Assembly (NCBI GenBank): GCA_002104905.1
Contig: MCFE01000680.1
Span: 1-46,845 of the forward strand
From: Basidiobolus meristosporus CBS 931.73
Taxonomy: Eukaryota; Basidiobolomycota; Basidiobolomycetes; Basidiobolales; Basidiobolaceae
Direction of reading: 5' to 3'
Length of the DNA stretch: 46,845 nucleotides
Of this stretch, positions 3,488 to 46,845 are shown piece after piece (position 1 is the first letter of the stretch; every line of letters starts with the position of its first letter). Under the pieces are notes generated by a model. It searched no databases and was not told where the DNA came from. It was given only the letters and a program-made list of their open reading frames with translations. The translations under genes and the position numbers were made by a program.

Positions 3488-3492
3488 GTTCT

Positions 3493-3945
3493 TGTCATGA
3501 TCACATGACAGCCATGAACACCCATGCCAAGTTTCAGCTTCCTAGCTCAGTTTCTAAGAGATTCTTTCTGGAACCTTCTACAACCTTCCAGAAAGTTCCT
3601 GACCATTCCAAACCACTGTTGCACAATGGAACATTCCATGGAAGCTTCCCATCATATTTTTCATAGTCCAATACCATATATGGAAATACCAGGTCACATG
3701 ACTTAGTCACATGATCAGGTGACCCAATCCATTTCCCCATCCTGTCTCAGTGCCTTGCCTTCTATATTATTATCCCCAGCACTGCTGCTGTGCCTCACCC
3801 CACAACCCCATTAGTATTAGCTAACATCTCTTGGCATCAGTATAGCCAAAAAGTATATATAGTCCTATCCCCCCTTAAGTATTCCTCAGTCTGATAAACA
3901 CAGGTCTTAAATAAACATCCTTGCCTTGGAAATCTGCCTTGCCTT
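3493..3945 (+). mobile_element. Left part of a solo LTR of a second family (LTR3), split by element B
   Basis: This segment begins TGTCATGATC and, joined to 8640-8715 which ends CATAACA, makes a 529-bp LTR-like unit with TG..CA ends. It sits inside element A. The flanking 5-mers are GTTCT (3488-3492) and GTTGT (8716-8720), a target duplication with one later mutation. It has a TATATATAG box at about 3854, and AATAAA near 3910. No internal coding region of its own is present, so it is a solo LTR. Orientation as plus is inferred from the TATA and AATAAA order. Confidence 0.75.
3566..3598. promoter_or_regulatory. Heat-shock-element array in LTR3
   Basis: Seven consecutive pentamer units alternate TTC and GAA with exact 5-bp spacing: TTC, GAA, TTC, CAA (one mismatch), TTC, GAA, TTC. 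This is the nTTCnnGAAn pattern bound by heat-shock factor trimers. It lies about 255-290 bp upstream of the LTR3 TATA box. Binding is inferred from pattern only. Confidence 0.6.
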
Positions 3946-4296
3946 TGTTGTAAGAGTCTTGGAGATATTGGAAGTGATTTGGAGAACAAGTAGATTATGT
4001 GGTTTTTCACTTAATGATTTATTGAATGTAAAAGTAGTATTTATACTTTTACATGGTCTTGGCATAACAAACACGTAGAATAGGTTAAGGAAGGTCCCAA
4101 GAACATGTGTGCAAAGCTTGGGGCTGTTTGGACAACTTTGAGAATTTTCATGTTCTGGGTACCTGGTATTTTGGTGAAAATATTCTAAGTAAATCCCGAC
4201 AAGGAATTTGGTCAGTATTCTCTAGGATTTGAAGGTGATGATCTAAGTGACTAAGTTAGGTGAATATTTAGGTGGAAAATACGAATTTTTACAACA
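3946..4296 (-). repeat. 3' LTR of element B
   Basis: This 351-bp copy pairs with 8284-8634 with about 7 mismatches, mostly transitions. The polypurine tract on the minus strand directly precedes it at 4297-4304. The RNA-sense strand has TATAAATAC in its 3' third and inverted terminal repeats of about 10 bp. Confidence 0.95.
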
Positions 4297-4307
4297 CTCC
4301 CACTCAG

Positions 4308-5066
4308 CTAAATGTTCATACTGACTAGTCCTAATTTTGACCTAAAATATTCAAACTTGTCTCTAGCTAATGGTTTGGTAAATATGTCTGCAATCATTTC
4401 ATCTGTAGGACAGTAAACTAAGCTAACTAAGTTATTTTCTATAGCTTCACGTATGAAATGATGTCTAATATCTATGTGCTTGGTTCTAGCATGAAAAGTT
4501 GGATTTCTACCTAATTGTATACATCCTTAATTATCTTGAAATAAAGTAATAGGCATTTTTTGACATAGGCCTAAATCTGCAAAGAGCTTTCTTAACCACA
4601 TTGCTTCTTTTGTAGCTTCACAGGCTGCCATATACTCTGCCTCTGTAGTAGAAAGTGCTACGGTTGGTTGCTTTCTTGAATTCCATGAAATTGCTCCTTT
4701 ACAGTAAAGAAAGGTGTATCCTGTGGTGGATCTTCTGTCTTCTAAATTTCGTCCCCAATCAGCATCAGAGTATCCCACAAGATCCTGTTCTGAATCCTTA
4801 TAAGTGTATCTTAAGCAGATATCAGCAGTTCCTTTTAGGTATCTAAAAATCCGCTTAACTGCTGCAATATGATCAGATCCATAATTCTGATTATGTTGGC
4901 TGACAACTCCCACTGAATATGAGATATCTGGACGTGTTCCAAGCATGATATACATCAGACTGCCGACCATAGATTGATAAGGAAAGTCAGGGCTTTCAGA
5001 TGGCACCAAGCTCTCTTGATTTGGTTGAGTTTTGACCAAGTTAAGGTTTGTCTCCATTGGGGTAGC
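4308..5066 (-). pseudogene. Element B RNase H domain (3' end of pol), nonsense-mutated
   Basis: The frame from 5057 to 4527 encodes the copia RT/RNase H junction and RNase H, with LMYIMLGTRPDISY, YSDADWG and VALSTTEAEYMA motifs carrying the acidic active-site residues. A 1-nt deletion near 5066-5071 puts it out of frame with the upstream RT. A TAA at 4527-4529 replaces the CAA seen in sister copies. The conserved C-terminal stretch (TKHIDIRHHF-like) continues in the same frame to a natural stop at 4308-4310, so only one nonsense change separates the parts. Confidence 0.9.
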
Positions 5067-7290
5067 TGCGGTTTACAGTCTTCCATTTTGTACTTCTTTA
5101 GTATATCTTGAATATACTTGGATTGGCTTAGGGTAATAGTCTGGGTACTTCTGTCTATGGAGAACTTAATCCCTAAGTAGTAACTGAGTTCTCCTAGATC
5201 GGACATCTTGAACTCCTTAGATAGGCTGGATTTAGTCTCTTCCAATGTTTCTAGGTTATTGGCGGCTATAATAAGATCATCCACATATAGAGCTAATAGG
5301 ACTGGATTTGCTCTATCTGGCTTATAGTATATACTATAGTCAGCATTACTCCTTTTGAAACTCAAAGATTCCAAATAAGAATCTATCTTGCAATTCCAGG
5401 CTCTCGGTGATTGTTTGAGACCATATAGTGACTTTTTAAGCTTGCAGACCAAATGGGGGTTATCTTGGTCAACAAACCCATCAGGCTGGTCCATATACAC
5501 GTCCTCATCAAGTTCTCCATTCAAAAATGCAGTTTTTACATCCATTTGATGAATAAAAAACTTATATTTGGCTGCAATAGCCAATATTAATCTGATGGAA
5601 TTAAACTTGGCTACCGGTGCAAAGGTCTCAGTATAGTCAAGTCCTTTTGTTTGAGAGTATCCTTTGGCTACAAGTCTTGCTTTGTATCTTTCAATTGTAC
5701 CATCAGCCTTGTATTTTGTCTTGAAGACCCATCTGCATCCAATTGATTTTTGGTTGATTGGTAATTTGACTAAGTCCCAAGTTTGATTTTCCATCAGTGC
5801 CTGATATTCCTCAGTCATTGCAGATCTCCAAAACTTCGTCTGAGGGCTATTTAGGGCCTCTTTTACAGTCTGGGGTTCATCAACATGGACTGAATAGGCA
5901 TAGGCTAAGTTTGTACCCTCATTGATATAGTAATTTGGGCTATTTCTTGTCCGATTGGATCTCCGGGCATTTGATACTGGAATGATCACTTCTGGGATAT
6001 TCCTGGGCACTGATTCTGGCTGAACCACGGTTGTAGAGTCCTCTGGAGTGAAAAAATTTTCATTGTTTTGCTCTGATTCAATCCTGACAATTGGTGGACT
6101 TGAGATCAAATTTTTGTCATCATCTAATGTCATTTTTTGTGAAAATTTTGAATTTTCATCAAACAACACATCCCTGGACTTGATCAGCTTCTTTGCTTCG
6201 GTATTGTAGAGTCTGTATGCCTTACTCTCATTGCAGTAGCCCAAAAATATGCATTTTACACTTCTTGGCTCAAATTTTGACTGATTTCCGGCCAGTTTTT
6301 TGGCATATGCTGTACACCCAAATATTCTTAGATGTTCTGCACTTGGTCTGTATCCATACCATGCTTCAAATGGAGTAGAATCACAAAGTATTCTGTTATA
6401 ACTCCTATTTTTAAGATATACAGCAGTGGCAACTGATTCCGCCCAAAAATCATAGGATAATTTTTGATCATGGATCATAGATCTTGCCATATCAATTATT
6501 GATCTGTTAGCTCGTTCTGCTACTCCATTTTGCTGTGGGGAGTATGGTACAGTAGTCTCTTGCTTTATCCCATGAATTTTGCAGAAGTGGATGAAGAGTT
6601 TTGAGGTATATTCTCCACCATTGTCAGAGCGTATTTTCTTGATTTTTTCACCAGTTTCTCTCTCCACCATGGCTTTAAACTCCCTGAGCTTAGACAGAGC
6701 TTCTTCCTTTCTCTCCATGAAGTAGACCCATGTGTATCTTGTATAATCATCAATAAAAGTGATTAAATACTTCATCCCGCCTAAGGATAAATTTTGCATA
6801 GGTCCACACAGATCTGAGTGAATTAGATCTAATTTTTTCTTAGTTTTGATTAACCCAGAGCTCTTGAACGGTTGTCTGGCTTGTTTCCCATATATGCAGG
6901 CTTCACAGTGCTCCAAAATAGCTGGGGGATCAATTTTCACTCCAGAAATTAGCTGATCTTTGATCATTTTACGCAAATAATCAAAATTGATGTGTCCAAA
7001 TCTCCTGTGCCAAAGCATTGGTGTTTCTTCATTTAAGTTACTTATATTGGCTTCCAGATATGATGGAATATAAGTCAACTTGTATAGATTCTGATCTCTG
7101 ATGCCCAAAGCAATATGAGCACCATTTTGATCAGTGATCCTGCATCCAGAATTGTTAAAACTGAAACTGAGTCCTTCTGCTGTGGCCTTGCTTACAGAGA
7201 GTAGGTTCTTGGCTATTTCTGGTACATAGAGTACTTCTTTAAAGGTCAGTGTATGGCTTCCTTCACTGCTTCTAAGGTTTACTTGGATAG
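5067..7290 (-). pseudogene. Element B integrase and reverse transcriptase
   Basis: The frame is part of an 819-aa open stretch (4955-7414). In order it has the integrase zinc-binding HHCC module (WHRRFGHINFDY, then CEACIYGK), the DDE core (D in LIHSDLCGP, D in SDNGGEYTS, E in NGVAERANR), and the copia RT (CRWVFKTKYKADG, FLNGELDEDVYM, catalytic LYVDDLIIAA). Catalytic residues are present. It is offset by one frame from gag-protease because of an extra C near 7291-7295, and from RNase H by a deletion near 5066. Sister copies A and C lack both changes, so these are mutations and not programmed frameshifts. Confidence 0.93.
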
Positions 7291-8279
7291 TTGCCTTCTC
7301 CCACTGCATCAAGTGTTCTATCGTCACCCATGAAAACCTTCTTAATTGGAATTTCTTGATATTGGGTAAAAAGTTCTTTTTGGTGTGTAAAGTGTTGAGA
7401 AGCTCCAGAGTCAATATACCACGTCTGAGAATCCTTGTTTGTGGTCATATTTAGTGCAGATATGAATAGTCTATCTTCAGTTGTTGCAGCATTTCCATAT
7501 TCAGGCTTCTTTTGCTGATAATCTCTCTTTTTGAGACACCGGTCTGATGTGTGTCCTTTCCTTTTGCAGTAGTTGCAAAATAGGTTGCTGTTGCCTTTGT
7601 AGGGTCTTGGGTACCTCCTTTGTTGGTTATCATTGCTTATTAAAGCATTTTCTTCTTCCTTCTTATTGGCACTTGATTTTCTTAATTCTTCATCCAGGAG
7701 CCTTCCATATACGTAATTTAAGGTCAAATCTTCAGTTCTGGACTCTAGGGCTGATACAAGGCCCTGAAACTTGTCTGTCAGGCTATTCAGGATGGTAACT
7801 ATCACATCCTCATCAGTAGTTGGTACGCCCACAGATTCCATCTCATCTACCAGCAGGGTAATTCTGTTAATTAGATTTTTCATTTCTTCTCCTGGCAGCA
7901 TCTTTGTAGTAAAGAATTTTCTTCTCAGATACATTTTCTTGGCAGCTGAACATGACTGGTAGGTGTCTTCTAATGCCTTCCAGGCATTCTTTGCCGTTTT
8001 TGCTCTTGAGCATTGAATTAGCAATTTGTCCTTGACATTAAGGCAAATGCAGTTAAAGGCACTTTGTTCTTTCTTCTGGTACTTTAAGGCTTCCTCTCCC
8101 ACGTTTTTAGGAGGGCATTCTTCTCCCATGACAATATTCCAAAGGCCTCTTTCTTGCAGCAGCATCTTCATCTTCACCTTCCACACTTGGTAGTTAGATC
8201 CATCCAACTTTTCAGCAGAGGGAAAAATTCCAGTAATAGCAGTAGTAGACATTGCAGAGAGTGACAGCTCGGGGCTCAT
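7291..8279 (-). CDS. Element B gag and aspartic protease
   Basis: The open frame runs from 8348 inside the LTR to 7272. Plausible starts are the ATG at 8279, which overlaps the primer-binding site, or the ATG at 8252 (MSTTAITG). The protein has a retroviral Gag UBN2-like region (YQVWKVKMKMLLQERGLW, then AKNAWKALEDTYQS), a CX2CX4HX4C knuckle (CNYCKRKGHTSDRC), and the protease active site DSGA (YIDSGASQHF) near residue 313 counted from 8348. In intact relatives gag and pol form one polyprotein. Here the frame closes after GEG because of the 1-nt insertion. Confidence 0.9.
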
Positions 8280-8283
8280 AACC
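8272..8283 (-). other. Primer-binding site of element B, complementary to the initiator tRNA-Met anticodon arm
   Basis: Directly inside the 5' LTR the minus strand reads GGTTATGAGCCC. Its complement GGGCTCATAACC matches the anticodon stem-loop (CAU anticodon) of eukaryotic initiator tRNA-Met, and not the usual 3' CCA end. This is the primer arrangement known from Drosophila copia, which uses a cleaved half-tRNA. Element A (119-130) and element C (near 42637-42648) have mutated versions. Confidence 0.75.
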
Positions 8284-8634
8284 TGTTGTAAGAGTCTTGG
8301 AGATATTGGAAGTGATTTGGAGAACAAGTAGATTATGTGGTTTTTCACTTAATGATTTATTGAAAGTAAAAGTAGTATTTATACTTTTACATGGTCTTGG
8401 CATAACAAACACGTAGAATAGGTTAAGGAAGGTCCCAAGAACATGTGTGCAAAGTTTGGGGCTGTTTGGACAACTTTGAGAATTTTCATGTTCTGGGTAC
8501 CTGGTATTTTGGTGAAAATATTCCAAGTAAATCCCGACAAGGAATTTGGTCAGTATTCTCTAGGATATGAAGGTAATGATCTAAGTGACTAAGTTAGGTG
8601 AATATTTAGGTGGAAAATACAAATTCTTACAACA
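8284..8634 (-). repeat. 5' LTR of element B
   Basis: The 351-bp LTR is nearly identical to 3946-4296. On the minus strand the transcription signals TATAAATACTAC and the gag-proximal end precede the primer-binding site. It abuts the right-hand GCCTT target duplication. Confidence 0.95.
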
Positions 8635-8639
8635 GCCTT

Positions 8640-8715
8640 GTTGATCCACACCTAAGTCCTTTCCTGGTCCTGCCTTGCCTAGCCCTACTCTCCTGCTTTG
8701 TGTCTATTCATAACA
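8640..8715 (+). mobile_element. Right part of solo LTR3
   Basis: This 76-bp remainder, ending in CATAACA, completes the LTR that begins at 3493. It was separated from the left part by insertion of element B. The next five bases (GTTGT) are the right target duplication inside element A. Confidence 0.7.
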
Positions 8716-9325
8716 GTTGTCAGCCAACATAATCAGAAATATGGATCTGATCATTTTGCAGCAGTTAATCGGATTTTTAGATACCTAAAAGGAACTGCTG
8801 ATATCTGCTTAAAATACACTTATAAGGATTCAGAACAGGATCTTGTGGGATACTCTGATGCTGATTGGGGGCAAAATTTGGAAGATAGAAGATCCATCAC
8901 AGGATACACCTTTCTTTACTGTAAAGGAGCAATTTCATGGAATTCAAGAAAGCAACCAACTGTAGCACTTTCTACCACAGAGGGAGAGTATAAGGCAGCC
9001 TGTGAAGCTACAAAAGAAGCAATGTGGTTGAGAAAGCTTTTTACAGACTTAGGCCTATGTCAACAATGCCTATTACTTTATTTCAAGATAATCAAGGATG
9101 TACACAATTAGGTAGGAATCCAACTTTTCATACTAGAACCAAGCACATAGATATTAGACATCATTTCATACATCAAGCTATAGAGAATAACTTAGTTAGC
9201 TTAGTTTACTGTCCTTCTGATGAAATGGTTGCAGACAAATTTACCAATCCATTAGCTAGAGGCAAGTTTGAATATCTTAGGTCAAAACTAGGACTAGTCA
9301 GTATGAGCATTTAGCTGAGTGGGAG
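8716..9325 (+). pseudogene. Element A RNase H portion, resumed after the nested insertion
   Basis: The translation picks up the copia RNase H exactly where the left part stops at 3487: VSQHNQKYGSDH, then YSDADWGQN, ALSTTEGEYKA and TKHIDIRHHFI. A 1-nt shift near 9060 divides it into two overlapping frames (8698-9111 and 9024-9314). A GTGGGAG polypurine tract lies just before the 3' LTR. Confidence 0.93.
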
Positions 9326-17525: not shown

Positions 17526-18695
17526 TTAAAAGTTGTGGATTTCTTGGCTGCTGCGGCCACGGAGGAATTTGGGTTCGGTCCCCTTGACGTAGATCGAGGT
17601 CCAAAGGTCCTCGAGCGGTGGCTCGGGAGATCCCTTGGCCGAGGCAACTTCTTCGTCCACCTGCTTGCGAGCGGACTTTTCAATCTCCTTAAGTTCCTCC
17701 TCGGTGGCAATTCCATTATCAACCAGCTTGGTCTTCAAGCCGGTGATGGGATCTCTGGTGCTACGCATCCGTTGGATTTCCTCTCGGGTACGGTAGGTGG
17801 TGCCAGGATCGGACATGGAGTGACCGCCGTAACGGTAGGTGTGCATTTCGAGGACCAGAGGGCCCTTGCCAGAGGTGGCCCATTCACGAGCATACTTGCA
17901 GGCTTGGTAAACGGCGAAAACATCCATGCCGTTCACCTTGATACCTGGGATGTAATCGCCACGCTTGAAGTAGTCCGTACTGGCGCTAGATCTTTTCGCC
18001 GAGGTGCCCATGCCATACAAGTTGTTTTCACAAACGAACACTGCGGGTAAATCCCACAGCTTGGCCATGTTGAACGCCTCAAAAACTTGACCTTGGTTGG
18101 CAGCACCGTCACCGTAGAGAGAGAAGGAGCAGGAGTCTTCCTCAGTGTACTTTGAGGTGAAGGCAAGTCCAGCCCCAAGGGGAACTTGTGCTCCGACAAT
18201 ACCGTTTCCACCGTAGAAACGATCGGCGAACATATGCATAGAGCCGCCCTTGCCAAAAGAGACACCGTCTCTGCGGCCCATCAATTCGGCGATAATCCCC
18301 TTGATTGAGCCACCTCGGATCCAGGTGAACCCGTGGCAACGGTAGGAGGTGATGATATGATCTTTCTTAGAGGCGGCTTTCACCATACCTACAGATACGG
18401 CCTCTTGGCCGGTACACAAGTGACAGAAACCCCGGATCATCTTGCTTTTGTAAAGTGCGTCAGCGGCCATTTCCAGACGACGCATGACGTTCATTTGGCG
18501 GTACATATCGATAAGCTCTTCTTTGGAGAAAGACACCTCACTGGCGGGAGCTTCGCAGTTGAAGGTGACAAAATCGTCTTCTTGAAGTTTGAATTCATGT
18601 TGTTGGAAAACTGGGGAGCCGGTGCTGAAGGAGCGAGTGGCAACAGAAGTGAAGGCTTTGGAAGCGGTTGGTAGACGAACAATCGAGCGAAGCAT
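17526..18695 (-). CDS. PDA1: Pyruvate dehydrogenase E1 component subunit alpha, mitochondrial
   Basis: One uninterrupted 389-aa frame encodes the alpha subunit of the alpha2beta2 E1 enzyme (EC 1.2.4.1), which decarboxylates pyruvate with thiamine diphosphate in the mitochondrial matrix. Residues 1-25 are a basic, Ser-rich presequence (MLRSIVRLPTASKAFTSVAT). The ThDP/Mg motif is GDGAANQG at 195-202 with the closing NN at 224-225. The phosphorylation loop YRYGGHSMSDPG (287-298) has the kinase-target serine at about 293, so regulation by PDH kinase and phosphatase is expected. Length and motifs match the family throughout. It is intron-free, unlike its neighbours. Confidence 0.98.
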   Translation of the reverse strand: MLRSIVRLPTASKAFTSVATRSFSTGSPVFQQHEFKLQEDDFVTFNCEAPASEVSFSKEELIDMYRQMNVMRRLEMAADALYKSKMIRGFCHLCTGQEAVSVGMVKAASKKDHIITSYRCHGFTWIRGGSIKGIIAELMGRRDGVSFGKGGSMHMFADRFYGGNGIVGAQVPLGAGLAFTSKYTEEDSCSFSLYGDGAANQGQVFEAFNMAKLWDLPAVFVCENNLYGMGTSAKRSSASTDYFKRGDYIPGIKVNGMDVFAVYQACKYAREWATSGKGPLVLEMHTYRYGGHSMSDPGTTYRTREEIQRMRSTRDPITGLKTKLVDNGIATEEELKEIEKSARKQVDEEVASAKGSPEPPLEDLWTSIYVKGTEPKFLRGRSSQEIHNF

Positions 18696-19714
18696 TGTGT
18701 CAAAGTAAAGGAAAGGATGTACAAGGCTTCACCAGCAAATGAAAAGAATATAAAGGGTATCACAGGGGTTTACCCATTTGATTGCCTAAATTTTTTCCCC
18801 TGACGGATAGATTCCATTACTTGTTTGGTAGTATGATTTGCGTATATAACTGTATATAACCAATTCCACCTCTTCCCTCTCCAATATGGTCCCGAGGTGC
18901 TTGGGGGCTTAGGACTGGAGCGATTAGGTAACATTCGAGTGCTCGGTAAAGCGTGATGATGAGTGAATATTCTACAGAGTGATACTCTTCGTGCGTCAGG
19001 TACTCTTCGGAAGCTAGTCGGGCCTCACATGTTGCATCATTCACGTCTACTCAGCCTCTCCGGAGGGATCTTTGTTTGTGGGGCTTCTCCAGCTCTGTAT
19101 ATACTTAATTGCGTAATTTGGGGATACTCGCCACCTCCGCCACATGATTGTTCGTTCTCTTGGTCCCAGAAAATGCCGAAGGAATCGGCTATAGCTCGTC
19201 TTCGGCTTCAAAAAACGAGCGTACTGATCAAATCAGTACTGACTCTCATCCTCCTTATAAGGAAATACGCTGAATCAGAATAATTACCAAAGAAACAACG
19301 TCATCATGCAAGACGCCTACCGAACGGGATTGGGTATTCCACAAATACTCGACGGAGATTCCGTTGTAATGGCATCACCTCACCAGGGCCAGTTAGAACC
19401 GTTTGCGGCCTTCCCGATTGACTAAGATCTTGTCTCACGTTGCATTAATTCTGTTGGTGGGCATTCTCAACACCATTTGGAAACAACCACAGGTAGATGA
19501 TTTTCCGATCGGATGATTCGAAGCATTTCCTTCCTGTAGCCAATATTACCAGAGGCACTATAAATCAGCAAATCCTCGCATAAATCAGATTCGAGAAGCA
19601 CTATAAAAACCGGTCGGCGTAGTTCTAGCCAACTTTCCAAAGCCCCAATTGAAAAATTCGGTTGTTCATCAAGATTATCGTTTACTTACTTGCATAAATT
19701 CGAGCCAAGTGGAG
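18696..19714. other. Divergent promoter region between PDA1 and the TOK channel
   Basis: About 1 kb has no established gene. A 39-codon plus-strand ORF (19306-19425, MQDAYRTGLGIPQ..) starts with an ATG and is amino-acid-plausible, but is too short to judge. It could be an upstream ORF or a first exon of the channel transcript. A TATAAAAACC motif occurs near 19601. Confidence 0.4.
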
Positions 19715-37540: not shown

Positions 37541-40500
37541 TTCCCACTTAGCTAAATGTTCTTACTGACTAGTCCAATTTTGACCTAAGATATTCAAACT
37601 TGACTCTAGCTAATGGTTTGGTAAATAAATCTATGATCATTTCATTAGAAGGACAGTAAACTAAGCTAACTAGGCTACTCTCTATAGCTTCACATATGCA
37701 AGGATGTATAATATCTATGTGCATAGTTCTGGCATGAAAAGTTGGATTTCTACCTAATTGTATACATCCTTGAAAATCTTGAAATAAAGTAATAGGCATT
37801 TTTGACATGGGCCCAATTCTGTAAAAAGCTTTCTTACCCACGTTGCTTCTTTTGTAGCTTCACAGGCTGCCATATACTCTGCCTTTGTGGTAAAAAGTGT
37901 TACGGTTGGTTGCTTTCTTGAATTCTATCAAATTGCTCCTTGACAGTAAAGATAGGTGTATCCTGTGGCGGATCTTCTGTCCTCTGAGTTTTGTCCTCAA
38001 TCAGCATCAGTGTCCCACAGGATCCTGCTCTAAATCCTTATAAGTGTATCTTAAGCAGACATCAGCAGTTCTTTTCAGATAACTAAATATCTGCCAACTT
38101 CTATAGTATAATCAGATCCATATTTCTGATTATGCTGGCTGACAACTCCCACTGAATATGAGATATCTGGACTTGTTCCAAGCATTATATACATCAGACT
38201 GATGATTATAGATTGATAAGAGTAGTCAGGGCTATCAGATGGCATCAAGGCCTGTTGATTTGGTTGTGTTTTGACCAAGTTAAGGGTTGTCTCCATTAGC
38301 ATGCCTGCTGGTCTACGGTCTTCCATCTGATACTTCTTTAGTATATCTTGATATACTTGGATTGGCTTAGGGTGATATTCAGGGTACTTCTGTCTATTGA
38401 GAACTTAATCCCTAAGTAGTAACTGAGTTCTCCTAGATTGGACAACTTGAACTCTTCAGATAGACTGGATTTAGTCTGTTCCAATGTTTCTAGGTTATTA
38501 GTGTATAATAGGATCATCCACATATAAAGCTAATAGAGCTGAGCTTGCTCTATCTGGCTTATAGTATATACTGTAGTCAGCATTACTCCTTTTGAAACTC
38601 AAAGATTCCAAATAAGAATCTATCTTGCAATTTCAGGCTCTCAGTGATTGTTTGAGACCATATAGAGATTTTTTAAGCTTGCAGACCAAATAGGGGCTAC
38701 CTTGGTCAGCAAGCCCATCAAGTTAGTCTATATGCACATCCTCATGAATTTCTCCACTCAAAAATGAAGCTTTTACATCCGTTTGATGTATAAAAAACTT
38801 GTATTTGTTTGCAATAGCCAATATTAATCTAATGAAATTAAACTTAGCTACCAGTGCAAAGGTTGCTGTGTAGCCAAGTCCTTTTGTTTGAGAGTATCCA
38901 TTGGCCACAAGTCTTGCTTTGTATCTTCAATTGTACCATCAGCCTTATATATTTGTCTTAAAGACCCATCTACTTCCAGTTGATTTTTGGTTGACTGGTA
39001 ATTTGACCAAGTCCCAAGTTTGATTTTCTATCAGGACCTGATATTCCTCTGTCATTGCAGATCTCCAAAACTTTGTCTGAGGGCTATTTAGAGCCTCTTT
39101 TACAGTCTGGGGCCCATCAATATCAACTGAATAGGCATAGGCTAAGTTTGTACCCTTATTGATGTAGTAATATGGGCTGTTTCTTGTCTGGTTAGATCTC
39201 CTTGCATTTGATATTAGAATGATCACTTCTAGGATATTCCTGGGCACTGATTCAGGCTGAACCATTGCTTTAGAGTTCTCTGGAGTGAAAATGGTTTCAT
39301 TGTTTTGCTCCAATTCAATCCTGACTATTTGTGAACTTGGGATAAACTTTTGTCATCAACCAATGTCATTGTTCCTGAATATTTTGAATATTCATTGAAC
39401 AACATATCCCTAGACTTGCTCAGCTTCTTTGCTTTAGCATTGTAGAGTCTGTATGCTTTACTCTCAGCGCAGTAGCCCAAAAATATGCATTTTATACTTT
39501 TTGGCTCAAATTTTGACTACTTTCTGGGCAGTTTCTTAGCGTATGCTTCACACTCAGATCTTCTTAGATGTTCTACACTTGGTCTGTATCCACACCATGC
39601 ATCAAGTGGCATAAAGTTGCAAAGTAATCTGTTATAACCCCTATTGTTAAGGTACACAGCAGTGCCAACCAATTCTGCCCAAAAATCAAAGGATATATTT
39701 TGATTGTGGATCATAGATTGTGCCATATCAGTTATTGATCTGTTTATATGTTCTGCTACTCCATTTTGCTGTGGGGAGTATGATACAGTAGTGTCTTGCT
39801 TTATCCCATGAATTTTGCAGAAGTGGACAAAGAGTTCTGAGATATTTTCTGCACCATTGTCAGAGCATATTTTCTTGATTTTTCCACCAGTTTCTCTCTA
39901 CACTGTGGCTTCAAACTCCCTGAACTTAGACAGAGCTTCTTTCTTTCTCTCCATGAAGTAGACCCATGTGTATCTTTTATAATCATCAATAAAAGTGATC
40001 AGATACCTCATCATGCATAAGGATAAATACTGCATAGGTCCACACAGATCTGAGTGAATTAGATATAGCTTTTTCTTAGTTATGATTAATACCAGGCCCT
40101 TGAGCAGTTGTCTGGCGCTGTTTCCCATATATACAGGCCTTACAATCCTCCAAATTAGCTGGAGGATCAATTTTTACTCCAGAAATTAGCTGATCTATGA
40201 TCATTTTGTGCAAATAATCAAAATTGATGTATCCAAATCTCCTGTGCCAAAGTATTAGTGTTTCTTCATTTAAGTCACTTAAACTGCCCTCTAGATGTGA
40301 TGGAAGATAAGTTAACTTATACAGATTCTGATCTCTGATACCCAAAGCAATATGAGCACAACTTTGATCAATGATCCTGCATCCAGAACCATTGAAGCTG
40401 AAATGGAATCCTTCTGCTGTGGCCTTGCTTACAGATAGTAGGTTCTTAGCTATTTCTGGTACACAGAGTACTTTGTTGAAGGTCAGTTTATGGCTTCCTT

Positions 40501-40955
40501 CACTGCTTCTTAGGTTTACTTGGACAGTTCCCTCTCCCACCACATCAAGTATTCTATTGTCACCCATGAAAGCCTTTGTAATTGCAATTTCTTGATATTG
40601 GGTAAAAAGTTCCTTTTGGTATGTAAAGTGTTGAGATGCTCCAGAGTCAATACACCGCATCTGAGAATCCTTGCTTGTGGTCATATTTAGAGCAGACATG
40701 AATAAAATAGAGAATCCTTGCTTGTGGGCATGTTTAGTGCAGATATGAATAGTTTATCATCAGTTGTTGCAGCATTTCCATATTCAGGCTTTTTCTGCTG
40801 ACTCTCTCACTTTTTGAAGCACTAGTAAGATGTGTGTTCTTTGCTTTTGCAGTAGTTACAAAGCAGGTTGCTGTTGCCTTTGAAAGGTCTTGGGCATCTT
40901 CTTTGTTGGTTATCATTGCCTATTAAAGCATTTTCTTCTTCCTTCCTGATGGTGC
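37541..40955 (-). pseudogene. Element C protease-integrase-RT-RNase H remnants
   Basis: Minus-strand frames give the zinc-knuckle region near 40830, protease (CIDSGASQHF near 40640), the integrase HHCC (WHRRFGYINFDYLHK) and core (HSDLCGPMQ), a GEIHEDVHID RT segment, a decayed YVDD region near 38515, a YSDAD-region remnant, and the TMHIDIIHP RNase H tail. Each piece is separated by stops or frameshifts, so nothing here is translatable as a polyprotein. Confidence 0.92.
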
Positions 40956-42034
40956 TGTAGTGGGGTCACAGTGACACACACAGGCAGATGTACTCATTCC
41001 CTTACGTTCACTTCCCTAAAAAGGATTACCCCCCCTGTATTAGTATCATCCCAAATTGCAATATTTTCTGTTCTGTCTATGTGATTATTACTATGCAACC
41101 TGACAAACTATTTGTCACTATTTACCCATTGCACAAGCTATTCCTATTCCTTGCCAAGATATCAAGATAAGATAGTTACTCTATAAGGCAAGTACCCCCA
41201 ACAGTGCCCATGTCATGTGACCATCTTGGTTTCATAACCCTCCTATCCTACTACCATAAGAGGCAGTTACATGACACAGGGGTTTCATATTACCACTACC
41301 TGATTGGCTAGGTGCTACAATGTCTTGTGGAACAATCCACCAAGAATTTGCGCTATTTTTAGTACACAATGACATGATTAGCTGTCTACTGCCTTCTGGA
41401 AACTTCCAGAAAGTATTTTCTAGCAAAAATTTGAGCAGCAAAAAAGTATATAAGGGAGGCTATCCCTTAAAATAAATTATCCCTGTTCCAATATTCCAAC
41501 TAATTGATTAGTGAGATCACTGCTACCTATTACCACTACTTTCTGACTCAGAATTGACAATACTCCCAGGAAACTGGGCTGACAGCCAACTGACCTTGGA
41601 GGCACTACTTGTGAGGAATACTCAGAGTAGGTATATTTTATTATATTTGATTGTTTTCCCAAGTTTGTTCTTGTACAGGCAAAGATACTTTTCAGTCATT
41701 GTAACTATTGGTCAAAGCTGCATTCTTATCAAGTCCCTGTTGGTGGAGTTTACAGTTGTTTTGACTTTGGAAGCTTTAGTACATTGTTGTCTCAAAGGAC
41801 ATCAAAGCCACTATAAACTTTTGTTAAGATGCCAACTAAGTTGGGGATTGTGGTTCAATAGTTTTCCCTTGACAAGCTTGAGGCTTTATCCCCTTTCACA
41901 TTAGATTAGACCATAGACCCAGTATTCCTAGCAAGCTTTTGCCAGAGGTTATTGCACCCAGTGAACACCCCATACACATTCACACTTGAGAAGTGTTGGC
42001 TGTATTTTGCCCTTTGGACTTATACACCACCACA
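40956..42034 (+). mobile_element. Solo LTR of a third family (LTR2) inserted in element C gag
   Basis: About 1,079 bp with inverted ends (TGTAGTGGGG at the left, CACCACCACA at the right) is flanked by GTGC on both sides (40952-40955 and 42035-42038), or by GTGCT if the shared T is counted. Element C gag is collinear with element B across the join. The LTR has a TATA box, AATAAA-type signals and no coding region. A second, truncated copy lies at 43523-44251. Confidence 0.82.
41394..41455 (+). promoter_or_regulatory. Heat-shock element and TATA box of LTR2
   Basis: Four perfect alternating units, TTC-GAA-TTC-GAA with 2-nt spacers, occupy 41394-41411. TATATAAGG follows at 41447-41455. In the second LTR2 copy the TATA block is kept at about 44001, and a three-unit GAA-TTC-GAA element sits at 43951-43963, about 40 bp upstream. 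The arrangement is a compact heat-responsive core promoter by pattern. Confidence 0.6.
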
Positions 42035-42038
42035 GTGC

Positions 42039-42710
42039 TTGATATTCTTAATTCTTCATCCAGAAGCCTTCTGTAAACATAGTTTAAGGTCATATCCTTA
42101 GCTTGGAGCTCTAGGGCTGATAAAAGGCCCTGAAGCTTGTCTGTCAGGCTTTTCAGGATGGTAACTATCACATCCTCATCAGTGGTTGGTATGCTCACAG
42201 GTTCCATCTCATCCACCAGCAGGGTAATTCTGTAGATCAGATTTTTCATTTCTTCTCCTGGCTGAATCTTTATGGTAAAGAATATTTGTCTCAGATACAT
42301 TTTTTTAGCAGCTGAATAATACTGGTAGGTGCTTCCAATGCCTTCCAGGCATTTCTTGCCATTTTTGCTCTTGAACATTGAATTAGCAATTTGTCTTTAA
42401 CATTAAGGCAGATGCAGTTAAAGGCACTTTGTTCTTTCTTCTGGTACTCTAAGGCTTGCTTGCCCACATTTTTAGGAGGGCATTCTTCTCCCATCATAAT
42501 ATCCCAAAGGCCTCTTTCTTGTAGCAGCACCTTCATTGCCATCTTCCACACTTGCTATTTAGATCAATCCAACTTTTGGGCAGAGGGAAAAATTCTAATA
42601 ATAGCAGCAGTAGACATTGTAGACAGTGACAGCTTGGGGCTCAGAACCTGTTGTAAGAGTCTTGGACATATTGGAAGTGGTTGAGAAGACAAGCAGACTA
42701 TGTGATCTTA
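42039..42710 (-). pseudogene. Element C gag 5' part, primer-binding site and truncated 5' LTR
   Basis: Frames at 42551-41980 match B gag (LLQERGLWDIMMGEECPPKN, FNCICLNVKDKLLIQCSRAK, GEEMKNLIYRITLLVDEME) with one frameshift near 42300. The primer-binding site at about 42637-42648 has GGGCTCAGAACC in place of GGGCTCATAACC. The LTR is recognisable at 42649-42710 (TGTTGTAAGAGTCTTGGACA) and then stops. Confidence 0.88.
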
Positions 42711-42718
42711 GTAGGGCT

Positions 42719-43245
42719 AGGGGAGGAAAGTCACCAAGTGGTGAAATCTTTATTTACTTACAATATATATCTAAAGGAGCCAAGTTGATCTGAAGTTATT
42801 CCTAGAAAGCTAGGTCTGAGAGATATCTTCCTGGTAAGTCAGGTCTGAGAGTTGAGAAGCTGAGTGGTACTAAATTTCCTAGTTAGCTAGGTCTGAGAGA
42901 GGTTTCCTGGAAAGCCAGGCCTGAGAAGTGAGAATCTGAATATATCTGAGCTAAGTTATACTGTTTTGCAGTAGCTGAATTGTGGCCAGAATGGCCAGTA
43001 GACTGGGGGAACTGAGAGGAATTTCTGGGCAATCACTGGCCAAATTTACTAGGCAAATTTGGCCAATTAGCATTTCAAGGATCTCAGCCAATCAGAGCCT
43101 TTACTTTGCCCGATGGTTGATCAAGCCATCTCCCAATGAGCACACATCAATTTATTAATCAAATTCTTGCTGAATCCAGGATTTGAACCCACAACCATGG
43201 GTATGGAAGGGTTAGGGATAACCCCAAGGCTAAGTGTTCTTGGTT
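42719..43245 (-). mobile_element. Telomere-associated SINE-like unit S1, full length
   Basis: This is the first copy of a 528-533-bp unit also found at 45317 and 45846. On the minus strand it starts after CCCTAACC, with a tRNA-like head (B box at 43179-43189), followed by a body with four hairpins. It ends in a tail with AATAAA, the TCACCA..TGGTGA hairpin and CTTTCCTCCCC next to TTAGGG-like sequence. It joins the truncated LTR of element C on its left. Confidence 0.75.
42801..42919. other. Four-hairpin block of the SINE-like unit (S1 copy)
   Basis: Four 14-nt palindromes share the plan 5-bp stem, 4-nt loop, 5-bp stem: CCTAGAAAGCTAGG (42801), CCTGGTAAGTCAGG (42829), CCTAGTTAGCTAGG (42878), CCTGGAAAGCCAGG (42906). 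Hairpins 1-2 and 3-4 are spaced by 28 bp, and each is followed by (T/C)CTGAGA. Stems alternate A-T and G-C at the same position with both sides changed. In S1 hairpin 2 the pairing is kept by a G-U. The other units repeat the block. Confidence 0.75.
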
Positions 43246-43251
43246 GGGTTA

Positions 43252-43522
43252 GGGGGAGGAAAGTCACCAAGTGGTGAAATCTTTATTTACTTATGACAAG
43301 TATCTAAAGAAGCCAAGTTAATCTGAAGTAATTCCTAGAAAGCTAGGTCTGAGAGATATCTTCCTGGTAAGCCAGGTCTGAGAGTTGAGAAGCTGAGTGA
43401 TACTATAGTTCCTAGTTAGCTTGGTCTGAGAGTGGTTTCCTGGAAAGCCAGGCCTGAGAAATGAGAATCTGAATATATCTGAGCTAAGTCATACTGGTTT
43501 GCAGTAGCTGAATTGTGGCCGG
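43252..43522 (-). mobile_element. SINE-like unit S2, short form
   Basis: Only the 3' 267-bp half of the unit is present (tail plus hairpin body). It ends exactly at GGCCGG, where an LTR2 copy begins. The tRNA-like head is absent. The terminal copy S5 ends at the same base. Confidence 0.75.
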
Positions 43523-44251
43523 TGTAGTGGGGTGACAGTGACACCCACTGACAGATGTGCTCATTCCCTTATTTTCTACTTCCCTATATCCCTACTACAC
43601 TCATTTTAGTTTTATCCCATTTGTCTTACCCAATCAGTACTATCCCATAAGCCGGTTGACTATCACACCTGCTTACCTTATTGCATAAGTTACCCCTCAC
43701 TTTATGTAAGATTACTAGTTACAAGTGCTTCTATATTAGGCAAGTACCCGCGCCAGTACCCGTGACACATGATCAACCCGTGTCACCATCCCTACCATTT
43801 CCATACCATATATGGTATCCCCATGTTACACAGGTTTCAGAATACTGATTCCTGATTGGTTGGATGTGCTGTGCCTCTTAGAACCTTCCGGCACCTACTT
43901 AGAACATTCTTAGGTCATTCTGATGTCATAAAGATTTCTATTGAACTCCGGAACCTTCTGGAACACCATGATTAGTAATCACTTAGCCAGTGAAGAAAAG
44001 TATATAAGGGAGGCTATCCCTCAACAATAAATCATCATCCCTTTTATCAATATACCGACTTGTTGATTAGTGTGATCACTGCTACCTGCTGCTACCTGAA
44101 CTTCCAACCCTAGACCACAGGACACTCCCAGGAAACCGTGCTGACAGCCAACTGACCTTGGAGGCACTACTTGTGAGGAATACTCAGAGTAGGTATCTTT
44201 TATTATATTTGATTCTTTCCCAAGTTTGTTCTTGTACAGGCAAAGATACTT
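43523..44251 (+). mobile_element. Truncated second copy of LTR2
   Basis: It starts TGTAGTGGGGTGACAG and is collinear with the first about 740 bp of the solo LTR at 40956, including the HSE-like GAA-TTC-GAA (43951-43963), TATATAAGGG (44001-44010) and CTATCCCTCAACAATAAA. It stops at CAAAGATACTT, where the 3' tail of the ORF1 element begins. The other half is missing. Confidence 0.85.
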
Positions 44252-44378
44252 AGGGGAGGGAAAGTCACCAAGGTAGGTGAAATCTTTATTTGCTTGCAGA
44301 CAAGTCTAACTACAAATAAAGAAGCCAGCTGGGAATAGAAGATTCCCAAAGTAAACACTAAGTTGAATATGAATAAAT

Positions 44379-45107
44379 CTAAGCTAAAGTTAAGGCAGTA
44401 TCCCAGAGTACACTGGAGTTCAGGTTCATGGGGGAGTGAAGTAGATAAGCTTGAGAGATATAATAATCTTTGAGGAAGTGGGTAACAGCAGGTGAAGGGG
44501 AGTTTTTGATAAGTGAAGTGAATCTTGAGAGCAGAGATTCCTCTAATGAGAAGGTCTTGTAAACAGGAGAATCAGGAAACTCTTTAAAGGCATGGTCAGT
44601 AGGTTCCCAGTAAAACTGGTCAGAGACATTTTGAGAGAACTCTTTAGCAATACTTTTGTCAAGTACTACCTCCAGAGTGTGATTGTTGATAAATCTCATG
44701 TTAACAATCTTGGATAAATTGTAACCTTGTTGCTTGAGATACATCCTATGCTCAGATATAGGAATGAACTCCACATTGGCAAAGTAGCAGACAGCCCAGT
44801 CAGTAGCAGGAGGCAAATCAGAAGTAGCAGGAAACTTTCTTTTAGTCTTGGGAGGAGCAGCAGGATGTCTTGAGGAAGCAGGAACAGGCTTTTTGACAGC
44901 TTCAGAGTAGGAAGAGTGAGCAGGGGCAGATGATTCTTGGGGAGTCTTGTTGACAGGAACAGCTGGCAGAGAGACAATAGATTCTTGCAGATCAGAGAAG
45001 GCAGAAAACAGCTTTTGAACTTGTTTCTTGAGTAAAGCATTTTCAGCTTCAACAAGTGCAAGCCTTTCCTCAAGGAAGGAAATCTGAAGGGAATGGAGTG
45101 AAGGCAT
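44379..45107 (-). CDS. ORF1-like coiled-coil protein of the telomeric element
   Basis: The 242-aa frame is intact. Residues about 10-45 form a leucine-rich coiled coil (SFLEERLALVEAENALLKKQ), followed by a Pro/Ser/Lys-rich basic linker (SYSEAVKKPVPASSRHPAAP) like nucleic-acid-binding linkers of LINE ORF1 proteins. A folded C-terminal region (WAVCYFANVEFIPISE, NMRFINNHTLEVVLDKSIA) could be an RRM-like or CTD module. I cannot name the family from sequence. The SYSEAVK-type box is often seen in ORF1/Gag-like proteins of non-LTR elements. An open frame in a subtelomeric repeat suggests recent activity or selection. Confidence 0.6.
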   Translation of the reverse strand: MPSLHSLQISFLEERLALVEAENALLKKQVQKLFSAFSDLQESIVSLPAVPVNKTPQESSAPAHSSYSEAVKKPVPASSRHPAAPPKTKRKFPATSDLPPATDWAVCYFANVEFIPISEHRMYLKQQGYNLSKIVNMRFINNHTLEVVLDKSIAKEFSQNVSDQFYWEPTDHAFKEFPDSPVYKTFSLEESLLSRFTSLIKNSPSPAVTHFLKDYYISQAYLLHSPMNLNSSVLWDTALTLA

Positions 45108-45146
45108 AAGAAATAAGAAGAAGAGGGTAAGATGGGTGGGTAGGTG

Positions 45147-45275
45147 GGAAAATTAGCAGGGAGAAGAGAAGGAAGGAGCAAAAATTCCAGAAGTCAGAAT
45201 TTATAGATGGATGGACAAGGGGTAGATGGATGGATTATTCCTGGGTTAGGAAAATTAGCAGGGAGAAGAGAAGGG
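45147..45275 (-). repeat. Direct repeat in the 5' leader of the ORF1 element
   Basis: A 27-28-nt block (GGAAAATTAGCAGGGAGAAG and following bases on the plus strand) occurs at about 45147 and again at about 45248, 101 bp apart, both upstream of the ORF. It may be a monomer-type promoter repeat. Confidence 0.7.
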
Positions 45276-45283
45276 ATAATTTG

Positions 45284-45316
45284 TAGGGTTAGGGTTAGGG
45301 TTAGGGTTAGGGTTAG
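45284..45316. repeat. Interstitial telomeric repeat
   Basis: Five and a half perfect TTAGGG repeats, in the same orientation as the chromosome-end array, separate the ORF1 element from SINE-like unit S3. Confidence 0.95.
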
Positions 45317-45842
45317 GGGGGAGGAAAGTCACCAAGTGGTGAAATCTTTATTTACTTATGACAAGTATCTAAAGAAGCCAAGTTAATCTGAAGTTATTCC
45401 TAGAAAGCTAGGTCTGAGAGATATCTTCCTGGTAAGCCAGGTCTGAGAGTTGAGAGGCTGAGTGGTACTATATTTCCTAGTTAGCTAGGTCTGAGAGAGG
45501 TTTCCTGGAAAGCCAGGCCTGAGAAGTGAGAATCTGAATATATCTGAGCTAAGTTATACTGGTTTGCGGTAGCTGAATTGTGGCCGGAATGGCCAGTAGA
45601 CTGGGGGAACTGAGAGGAATTTCTGGGCGATCACTGGCCAAATTTACTAGGCAAATCTGGCCAATTAGCATTTCAAGGATTTCAGCCAATCAGAGCCTTT
45701 ACTTTGCCCGATGGTTGATCAAGCCATCTCCCAATGAGCACACATCAATTTTATTAATCAAATTTTTGCTGGATCCAGGATTTGAACCCACAACCATGGG
45801 TATGGAAGGGTTAGGGATAACCACAAGGCTAAGTGTTCTTGG
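45317..45842 (-). mobile_element. SINE-like unit S3, full length
   Basis: Full unit, period 529 bp to the next copy. The minus-strand A box (rc of CCACAAGGCTA) is at 45821-45831 and the B box GGTTCAAATCC at 45788-45778. Hairpin block and tail are intact. S3 and S4 differ at only a few positions. Confidence 0.78.
45778..45831 (-). promoter_or_regulatory. Putative internal RNA polymerase III promoter (A and B boxes)
   Basis: On the minus strand TAGCCTTGTGG (A-box-like; consensus TRGYNNANNNGG, one mismatch) is followed about 30 nt later by GGTTCAAATCC (consensus GGTTCRANTCC, exact). The GTGGTTA after the A box also recalls a tRNA D arm. The same pair is present in S1 and S4. This is the signature of a tRNA-derived SINE head. 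Confidence 0.6.
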
Positions 45843-45845
45843 TTA

Positions 45846-46371
45846 GGGGGAGGAAAGTCACCAAGTGGTGAAATCTTTATTTACTTATGACAAGTATCTA
45901 AAGAAGCCAAGTTAATCTGAAGTTATTCCTAGAAAGCTAGGTCTGAGAGATATCTTCCTGGTAAGCCAGGTCTAAGAGTTGAGAAGCTGATTGGTACAAT
46001 ATTTCCTAGTTAGCTAGGTCTGAGAGAGGTTTCCTGGAAAGCCAGGCCTGGGAAGTGAGAATCTGAATATATCTGAGCTAAGTTATACTGGTTTGCGGTA
46101 GCTGAATTGTGGCTGGAATGGCCAGTAGACTGGGGGAACTGAGATGAATTTCTGGGCGATCACTGGCCAAGTTTACTAGGCAAATCTGGCCAATTAGCAT
46201 TTCAAGGATTTCAGCCAATCAGAGCCTTTACTTTGCCCGATGGTTGATCAAGCCATCTCCCAATGAGCACACATCAATTTATTAATCAAATTTTGCTGGA
46301 TCCAGGATTTGAACCCACAACTATGGGTATGGAAGGGTTAGGGATAACCACAAGGCTAAGTGTTCTTGGTT
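45846..46371 (-). mobile_element. SINE-like unit S4, full length
   Basis: Tandem to S3, with GGTTAGGGGG at the junction. B box at 46315-46305. Hairpins and tail are conserved; scattered substitutions include GGCCGG to GGCTGG. The telomeric joint on each side suggests independent end-joining events or unit-plus-telomere amplification. Confidence 0.78.
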
Positions 46372-46373
46372 AG

Positions 46374-46644
46374 GGGGGAGGAAAGTCACCAAGTGGTGAA
46401 ATCTTTATTTACTTATGACAAGTATCTAAAGAAGCCAAGTTAATCTGAAGTTATTCCTAGAAAGCTAGGTCTGAGAGATATCTTCCTGGTAAGCCAGGTC
46501 TGAGAGTTGAGAGGCTGAGTGGTACTATATTTCCTAGTTAGCTAGGTCTGAGAGAGGTTTCCTGGAAAGCCAGGCCTGACAAGTGAGAATCTGAATATAT
46601 CTGAGCTAAGTTATACTGGTTTGCGGTAGCTGAATTGTAGCCGG
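46374..46644 (-). mobile_element. SINE-like unit S5, short form at the telomere junction
   Basis: Only the tail and hairpin body (267 bp) are present. The sequence changes from the unit to TTAGGG repeats at GCCGG, the same base at which S2 ends. The head with the Pol III boxes is missing. Confidence 0.78.
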
Positions 46645-46845
46645 GTTAGGGTTAGGGTTAGGGTTAGGGTTAGGGTTAGGGTTAGGGTTAGGTTAGGGTT
46701 AGGGTTAGGGTTAGGGTTAGGGTTAGGGTTAGGGTTAGGGTTAGGGTTAGGGTTAGGGTTAGGGTTAGGGTTAGGGTTAGGGTTAGGGTTAGGGTTAGGG
46801 TTAGGGTTAGGGTTAGGGTTAGGGTTAGGGTTAGGGTTAGGGTTA
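46644..46845 (+). repeat. Terminal telomere array
   Basis: About 33 TTAGGG repeats run to the end of the window, G-rich strand toward the 3' end, as at a right chromosome end. One repeat near 46687-46692 is TTAGG. The array is continuous, so this is the true telomere or very near it. Confidence 0.98.

Follow-up and report, generated by a model that had tools for sequence, protein, structure and literature searches.

A Pol III-type-headed SINE near contig ends of Basidiobolus meristosporus, with a 3' tail common to APE-type LINEs

The window analysed, i.e. the whole stretch of 46,845 nucleotides of contig MCFE01000680.1 from Basidiobolus meristosporus CBS 931.73, encodes PDH E1-alpha, with 91% identity to Basidiobolus ranarum, and ends in terminal TTAGGG repeats. 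Beside these repeats lie five minus-strand copies of a SINE unit of about 523 bp, three of full length and two 5'-truncated. The features of the contig end are the following:

42720..43240, minus strand: SINE copy 1, full length (unit alignment); its tail meets Copia-like sequence, judged by eye, at 42719 via TAGGGCTA
43250..43522, minus strand: SINE copy 2, head absent, unit positions 251-523 (unit alignment)
43523..44253, plus strand: LTR-like fragment that repeats a stretch at about 40956-41687, next to Copia-like ORFs
44254..45283, minus strand: half-LINE with an ORF1-like protein only; 3' tail blocks in common with the LINEs and the SINE
44382..45152, minus strand: half-LINE open frame of 257 codons from stop to stop, similar to LINE A ORF1
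45284..45318, plus strand: interstitial array of 5.8 TTAGGG units, flanked by the 5' end of the half-LINE and by the SINE copy 3 tail
45317..45839, minus strand: SINE copy 3, full length (unit alignment)
45844..46366, minus strand: SINE copy 4, full length, used as the reference unit (unit alignment)
45841..45849, minus strand: terminus CCCCTAACC of SINE copy 4, complementary to the telomere G-strand
45858..45871, minus strand: tail hairpin TCACC-ACTT-GGTGA of SINE copy 4 (tail comparison)
46305..46315, minus strand: B box GGTTCAAATCC of SINE copy 4
46347..46358, minus strand: A-box-like signal TAGCCTTGTGGT of SINE copy 4, two mismatches to the consensus
46374..46644, minus strand: SINE copy 5, head absent (unit positions 251-523); the terminal telomere caps it directly
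46643..46845, plus strand: terminal telomere, 34 TTAGGG units, reaching the contig end

Matches to a 300-nt core of the unit started at 42699, 43232, 45297, 45826 and 46354, with spacings of 533, 2065, 529 and 528, and the other four copies showed 90-95% identity to the reference copy over this core. Both head-less copies started at unit position 251 when aligned to the head-to-tail unit. The first-pass annotation had described five copies, three full and two short, lying between TTAGGG-type sequences and against the telomere, all with the tail inward and the head to the tip; the core matches and unit alignments, the interstitial and terminal arrays and the common minus-strand orientation of the five copies bear out this description. 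Between SINE copies 2 and 3, the LTR-like fragment and the ORF1-only LINE relative were found in addition, both unmentioned in that annotation. The LTR-like fragment adjoins SINE copy 2 and is cut on its other side by the half-LINE tail.

The head of the unit was scored with the A- and B-box consensus sequences. The exact B box GGTTCAAATCC occurred in 64 of the 66 full copies collected from the window and other contigs, and TTAGCCTTGTGG was found at the head in 60 of the same 66, while none of 20,000 dinucleotide shuffles returned the A+B arrangement at the head. Candidate internal Pol III A and B boxes are thus present at the SINE 5' end, in line with the earlier proposal of a Pol III-type head. 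The head also aligned colinearly with one tRNA gene of the same genome, modestly above chance (16 of 1000 shuffles equal), in a comparison that covered 10 of the 62 tRNA genes listed, and was not recognised as tRNA by ARAGORN or by the Rfam tRNA model. From the two boxes and this match to a single tRNA gene, the unit may be tRNA-derived.

At the opposite end, the last 42 nt or so of the SINE consist of conserved blocks, namely AAATAAAGATTTCACC, a hairpin, a C-run and a terminal TAACC that is complementary to the telomere G-strand. The same blocks occur in the APE-type LINE (LINE A), in a second LINE and in ORF1-only half-LINEs, so the defined tail of the first-pass annotation extends to partner elements which it had overlooked: autonomous APE-type LINEs and half-LINEs. 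The hairpin stem was identical in nine representative tails, while the C-run length varied among tails. The second LINE, identified at locus L040, has its own tail class, and the class of the second half-LINE was assigned from the two copies checked (L040 and L041). Over 163 aligned columns, the open frame of the window half-LINE was 36% identical to the C-terminal portion of LINE A ORF1; it returned no Pfam match. At E values up to 1, neither LINE A nor the half-LINE was matched by the first 440 nt of the SINE unit. By sequence comparison, then, the SINE has its 3' tail in common with a LINE of the same genome, and since this tail matches that of the adjoining reverse-transcriptase genes, the SINE is likely copied by their enzyme onto the telomere repeat; these tail-sharing partners would therefore account for how the unit moves.

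LINE A comprises ORF1, an in-frame UGA and a 922-codon ORF2, and one LINE copy keeps both ORF1 and ORF2 open. The reverse transcriptase was matched by the Pfam RVT_1 domain (5e-25), and no C-terminal restriction-like endonuclease was listed among the Pfam matches of the LINE protein. Modelling of the N-terminal domain returned an APE fold, structurally close to the TRAS1 endonuclease as one among many APE-fold matches. Most active-site residues are kept and the conserved Glu is replaced by Asp, which makes the nicking activity uncertain. The LINE thus has a reverse transcriptase and a predicted endonuclease domain. The idea that the endonuclease is lost altogether was set aside, Glu being the only residue replaced among the active-site residues examined.

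It might be argued that the SINE is a deletion derivative of a LINE carrying a chance Pol III-like head, i.e. a non-autonomous, tail-bearing fragment transcribed by Pol II. Such a derivative exists in Magnaporthe as MoTeR2 (PMC7367193), and the failure of the tRNA models to recognise the SINE head would fit. However, the lack of any match of the first 440 nt to LINE A or the half-LINE and the complete absence of the A+B arrangement from the shuffles argue against it, as does the absence of TTTT from three window copies, a feature likewise found in 48 of 2000 shuffles. We consider this explanation very unlikely.

Genome-wide searches returned 468 SINE tails and 270 SINE heads, the SINE being a short (about 523 bp) element present in hundreds of copies. 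The copies are about 98% alike, with many different 5' truncation points and mostly intact 3' ends. Across the 29 measured contigs of 40 kb or longer, all 105 tails of all families faced inward and lay within 18.4 kb of an end, and all 26 LINE A tails were confined to telomere repeats or ends. The loci measured had been selected through SINE or telomere matches or because they were contig ends, and therefore form a non-random sample; the count covers tails on contigs of known length, a minority of the 468, so that the 105-tail result describes the placeable sample and is not a whole-genome proof. First-look scoring covered 40 of 434 candidates. Reverse orientation was found for 7% of SINE tails and 9% of LINE tails, against 1.3% of telomere repeats; the reverse places among the matches listed (1/34, 3/13 and 7/83) were all below coordinate 19 kb, a position that carries little information where the contig itself is that short. 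Within the placeable sample, SINE and LINE copies are confined to contig ends and many are telomere-capped. The unit thus recurs at other contig ends with its tail inward, and scattered internal copies lacking telomere flanks, which according to the first-pass annotation would refute a telomeric family, were not seen on the 29 contigs.

An ordinary subtelomeric satellite as the whole story was ruled out by the many truncation points and by the tail held in common with coding elements. A subtelomeric repeat that owes its spread chiefly to recombination or break-induced replication from end to end, with retrotransposition no longer current, would agree with the almost uniform spacing of tandem copies in the window (528-533 bp), the high similarity of the copies and the common start of the two truncated window copies, and MoTeR arrays in Magnaporthe are amplified by break-induced and D-loop copying (PMC7367193). 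The diversity of 5' truncation points and the variable C-run speak against it, together with the varied junction partners, 98 of the 148 sequences next to a tail being unmatched as full heads (8 of these show SINE head letters), and with the occurrence of one tail on a non-coding SINE and on LINE and half-LINE bodies to which the first 440 nt of the SINE gave no match in the search above. Recombination as the main route is accordingly improbable.

The junctions themselves, at which the C-run plus TAA lies inward, retain at most one telomere repeat in 117 of 148 cases; in 31 of the 148 no further repeat follows the tail, which in 25 of these cases is joined via TAA alone. In a TRAS/SART-like process, the LINE endonuclease would nick the G-strand within the telomere array, where SINE and LINE RNAs would be reverse-transcribed, and the tracts would later shrink because long interstitial tracts break. 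The APE fold with most active-site residues kept and its likeness to TRAS1 favour such a process, as does the instability of interstitial tracts of three or more repeats in Magnaporthe (PMC7367193). The longest tracts (9 and 15 repeats) occurred among the tip-most junctions, so that shortening after insertion is possible. Yet 17 of the 24 tip-most junctions retain at most one repeat, although uninterrupted terminal arrays in the examined contigs measure 118-240 bp, and tip-most junctions showed no significant excess in length over inner ones (p 0.18). The tails lacking any further repeat and the Glu-to-Asp change also weigh against nicking, which we regard as quite possible, though clearly short of even odds. 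Since most junctions hold at most one repeat, attachment at short ends is favoured over nicking inside long arrays, without being proved; the HeT-A-like end attachment proposed earlier is likewise favoured by the short junctions, with array nicking followed by tract shortening as a possible alternative.

Taken together, the five copies are best read, with a probability of about 0.8, as a Pol III-type-headed SINE located near contig ends where placeable, tail inward and head to the tip, likely moved by the tail-sharing APE-type LINEs of the same arrays; the predicted pairing of its RNA, via CCCUAACC, is with a priming TTAGGG 3' end. Pol III would produce an RNA of about 0.5 kb, starting with AAGAACAC and ending near CCCCUAACC, whose tail hairpin would be bound by the LINE protein. 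Pairing of CCCUAACC with the TTAGGG 3' end would prime LINE-encoded reverse transcription, so that synthesis would begin on a G-strand end with usually few telomere repeats left, either eroded, broken or freshly seeded by telomerase, and telomerase would afterwards cap the new end; a telomerase-type gene is present in the genome. Half-LINEs with only an ORF1-like gene would ride the same machinery.

More tentatively, and at somewhat under even odds, these elements may form a layered telomere retroelement community of LINEs, ORF1-only half-LINEs and a Pol III-headed SINE in a telomerase-bearing early-diverging fungus, the SINE residing only on chromosome ends and the RNAs, ending in the telomerase-template-like CCCUAACC, being copied straight onto eroded or broken ends. 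The SINE would then be a natural relative of telomerase RNA, healing ends alongside telomerase. If so, a Pol III RNA can turn into a chromosome-end template by gaining a hairpin and a terminus complementary to the telomere, a point relevant to how telomerase RNA could have originated as a molecule distinct from its reverse transcriptase. The many natural junctions offer material to distinguish end attachment from nick-primed insertion.

Telomere-targeted LINEs of several lineages, such as TRAS/SART, MoTeR and FoTeR (PMC7265360, PMC7367193, PMC12857005), and SINEs borrowing a LINE tail are already known. A telomere-targeted SINE was not found in full-text literature searches, among the matches listed; these searches did not show an earlier description of a short element of this kind, in agreement with the first-pass annotation, which knew of none. 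Stringent-type pairs such as eel SINE/UnaL2 similarly have a stem-loop SINE tail in common with a LINE; the known pairs are generally dispersed, whereas the pair described here sits at chromosome ends. The word "telomere" is absent from the available text of PMC3747384 on such pairs.

TRAS/SART elements of insects (R1 clade) resemble LINE A in combining an APE-type endonuclease with a reverse transcriptase and in being inserted into telomere repeats. TRAS ends in poly(A), an end not seen in the tails analysed here, which carry a hairpin and a C-run plus TAACC, have a SINE partner and reside in a fungal host. SART also ends in poly(A), and its orientation upon insertion is the reverse of that of TRAS (PMC7265360).

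MoTeR1/MoTeR2 of Magnaporthe and FoTeR of Fusarium are likewise fungal telomere retrotransposons with the 5' end to the tip, but differ in bearing a restriction-like endonuclease of the CRE-type clade (PMC7367193, PMC12857005); the fungal host and the SINE and LINE tails at contig ends found here agree with the earlier remark that fungi host telomere-targeted retroelements. MoTeRs form head-to-tail arrays, separated by telomere tracts of half a unit to more than 20, and MoTeR2, a likely rider on MoTeR1, has 860 bp at the 5' end and 77 bp at the 3' end in common with it (PMC7367193). Unlike the present SINE, MoTeR2 is not described as Pol III-headed in the available portions of PMC7367193 and PMC12857005.

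Telomere-located non-LTR elements of other eukaryotes include Tx1-1_ACar, Zepp, GilM/GilT and Cnl1, for which the available portions of PMC10088271 and PMC12857005 mention no SINE partner. HeT-A/TART/TAHRE of Drosophila and the endonuclease-free Penelope-like elements of rotifers and Mycosphaerella also occupy chromosome ends. In Mycosphaerella the 3' end of these elements faces away from the telomere and retains one to three copies of TTAGGG, and such termini can pair with the overhang (PMC4522978). The present system differs from both groups in having a telomerase-type gene, a retained APE-fold domain and a different reverse transcriptase family, and it adds an early-diverging fungus to the lineages with dedicated retroelements at chromosome ends.

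The window is a complete contig of 46,845 bp; its right terminus is formed by 34 TTAGGG units and the SINE copies are located inward of this array. Repeat comparison within the window bore out the first-pass annotation, which had placed five copies of one unit near the telomere: three are full and two short, all lie on the minus strand and their coordinates were correct.

SINE copies (from the repeat comparison within the window) and the elements between them
42720-43240, minus strand, full SINE copy
43250-43522, minus strand, SINE copy from unit position 251
43523-44253, LTR-like fragment between SINE copies 2 and 3, repeating about 40956-41687
44254-45283, 1,030-bp element with a single ORF1-like open frame, between SINE copies 2 and 3
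45317-45839, minus strand, full SINE copy
45844-46366, minus strand, full SINE copy
46374-46644, minus strand, SINE copy from unit position 251

The innermost SINE is joined to Copia-like DNA via TAGGGCTA at 42719/42720, and the tail of the half-LINE, an element carrying an ORF1-like gene only, meets the LTR-like fragment at 44253/44254 with no telomere repeats between them. Both short copies have their 5' end (43522 and 46644) at unit position 251; the one ending at 46644 is telomere-capped and the one ending at 43522 adjoins the LTR-like fragment. This common start may reflect chance, a hot spot or end-to-end copying, and some units were probably copied by recombination between ends. Copia-like polyprotein pieces, recognized by eye, occur at 1093-9111 and 38945-42396, on either side of the gene-bearing middle of the contig.

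The genome analyzed comprised 89.0 Mb in 1311 contigs. Pattern searches allowing up to 3 mismatches returned the SINE tail 434 times in the forward and 34 times in the reverse direction and the head 257 and 13 times, respectively, and the reversed tail and head patterns used as controls gave no match in the whole genome. The tail of LINE A, the APE-type LINE partner, was found 820 times forward and 83 times reverse (up to 2 mismatches; controls 0). The first genome-wide look for the SINE scored 40 of the 434 candidates, and the presence of several haplotypes in the assembly could have inflated the element counts. Telomere repeats amounted to 8002 forward and 103 reverse (reversed-pattern controls 3 and 15), indicating that the contigs mostly have their telomere at the right and that the elements share that direction; the near-exclusive forward repeats are an oddity of contig turning. 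The reverse share was 7% for SINE tails and 9% for LINE A tails, versus 1.3% for telomere repeats. Positions were known for 1 of the 34 reverse SINE tails, 3 of the 13 heads and 7 of the 83 LINE A tails, all at coordinates below 19 kb, either near left ends or on contigs that are perhaps short.

A search of the other chromosome ends for the unit had been suggested. On 29 contigs of known length (at least 40 kb) 105 of 105 tails pointed inward and lay within 18,371 bp of an end, in a non-random sample of loci that were contig ends or had been drawn via matches to the SINE or to telomere repeats. The SINE contributed 58 of these tails and LINE A 26; another 14 had the GGTGACTTTCCC tail common to half-LINE 1 and the second LINE, and half-LINE 2, with its GGTGAT tail, accounted for 7.

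Junctions with telomere repeats were evaluated for 148 tails; the sequence covered was 207 kb on 43 contigs and included the entire window. Beyond the C-run and TAA, 31 of the 148 had no further telomere repeat, 86 had one and 11 had two, with a maximum of 15; under a stricter reading, 119 of the tails had no more than one. The tail TAA abuts other sequence directly in 25 of the 31 repeat-less junctions, where one telomerase-made TTAGGG fused with the C-run could be hidden. Uninterrupted terminal arrays on the same contigs measured 118-240 bp. From these sequences, we favour a process in which a chromosome end would lose sequence and then retain or gain one or two TTAGGG units, the RNA of a LINE, half-LINE or SINE would pair through CCCUAACC with that TTAGGG 3' end and be copied, and telomerase would then cap the product. 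Insertion into a long telomere array followed by shortening of the tract could yield the same junction picture, as interstitial tracts of at least 3 repeats are described as unstable in Magnaporthe (PMC7367193). At most one repeat was present in 17 of 24 tip-most versus 45 of 54 inner junctions (p 0.18).

The inward neighbour matched a full SINE head at 45 of the 148 junctions and the complete head of LINE A or of a half-LINE at 5, and was unmatched at 98, 8 of which contained SINE head letters; many others, part of which were classified, resembled by eye LINE, half-LINE or SINE stretches with varied cut points. Among 25 partial SINE copies, some of them cut merely by the boundaries of the sampled loci, 22 begin within the unit and 18 extend to its 3' end. 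At L082 (C249:12600-12700, on a 12,880-bp contig), a gene resembling tRNA-Lys by eye is cut near position 8 with CCCTAA repeats directly attached, an apparent telomere addition onto a broken tRNA gene that parallels the end attachment proposed for the SINE. A telomerase RNA-binding domain is encoded on C880 (E 1.6e-8, above the family cut-off) and occurred in none of 14 control genomes, all prokaryotes.

The SINE head was read against the A- and B-box consensus sequences. The exact B box GGTTCAAATCC occurs in 64 of 66 full copies and TTAGCCTTGTGG, with 2 mismatches to the consensus, stands at the A-box place in 60 of 66, in agreement with the Pol III-like signals first noticed at the unit start. 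In 20,000 dinucleotide shuffles, an A box (up to 2 mismatches) with an exact B box after it never arose at the head; 13 of the shuffles had this pair at any place on the strand. TTTT is absent from the three full window copies, as from 48 of 2000 shuffles, and from 63 of the 66 full copies. As to the proposed tRNA origin, ARAGORN and Rfam recognized no tRNA in the head. Of 3931 tRNA candidates in this genome 63 were scored and 62 genes listed; 10 of the listed genes were compared with the head, and the best alignment, to L077, is colinear over 71 columns from the A box to beyond the B box. Its score, equalled by L083 with a shorter match, was attained by 16 of 1000 shuffles, so that descent of the head from a tRNA is likely on the basis of this alignment. 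The tRNA genes lie in spaced clusters on C964, C1258, C426, C970 and C615, possibly as part of a larger tandem repeat; on C964 three copies are spaced 5,227 bases.

Among fungal elements, the telomere LINEs MoTeR1 and FoTeR carry a restriction-like endonuclease, and MoTeR2 is a non-autonomous relative that has 5' sequence (860 bp) and 3' sequence (77 bp) in common with MoTeR1 (PMC7367193, PMC12857005); TRAS and SART are telomere LINEs of insects (PMC7265360), endonuclease-less Penelope-like elements occur at telomeres in a fungus (PMC4522978), and a stem-loop tail is common to members of stringent SINE/LINE pairs (PMC3747384). The word 'SINE' is absent from PMC12857005, PMC8381367 and PMC10088271. 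In line with the supposition that a Pol III-headed telomere unit is undescribed in fungi, full-text searches covering few subscription papers showed no telomere SINE among the papers listed, nor did the passages cited here describe one; an earlier account may exist. SINE and telomere LINEs each belong to a known kind of element, and the combination of a telomere-bound SINE with LINE partners in an early-diverging fungus appears new.

The 5' UTR of LINE A at L043 (C516) carries tandem repeats of about 100 bp, and other copies begin at offsets 98-99 and 199, as if the repeat number varied; PMC12857005 likewise describes 5' VNTRs in FoTeR and MoTeR1. ORF1 and ORF2 of LINE A share one frame, with UGA-CUA between them (L043 4319-4321), a possible stop-codon readthrough signal. 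Finally, the host is most likely a Basidiobolus, judged from the PDH E1-alpha gene of the window (17526-18728): its identity was 91% with Basidiobolus ranarum, 78-81% with three entries for B. meristosporus and at most 70% with the rest of the 120 listed matches (of 7990), which were mostly fungal.
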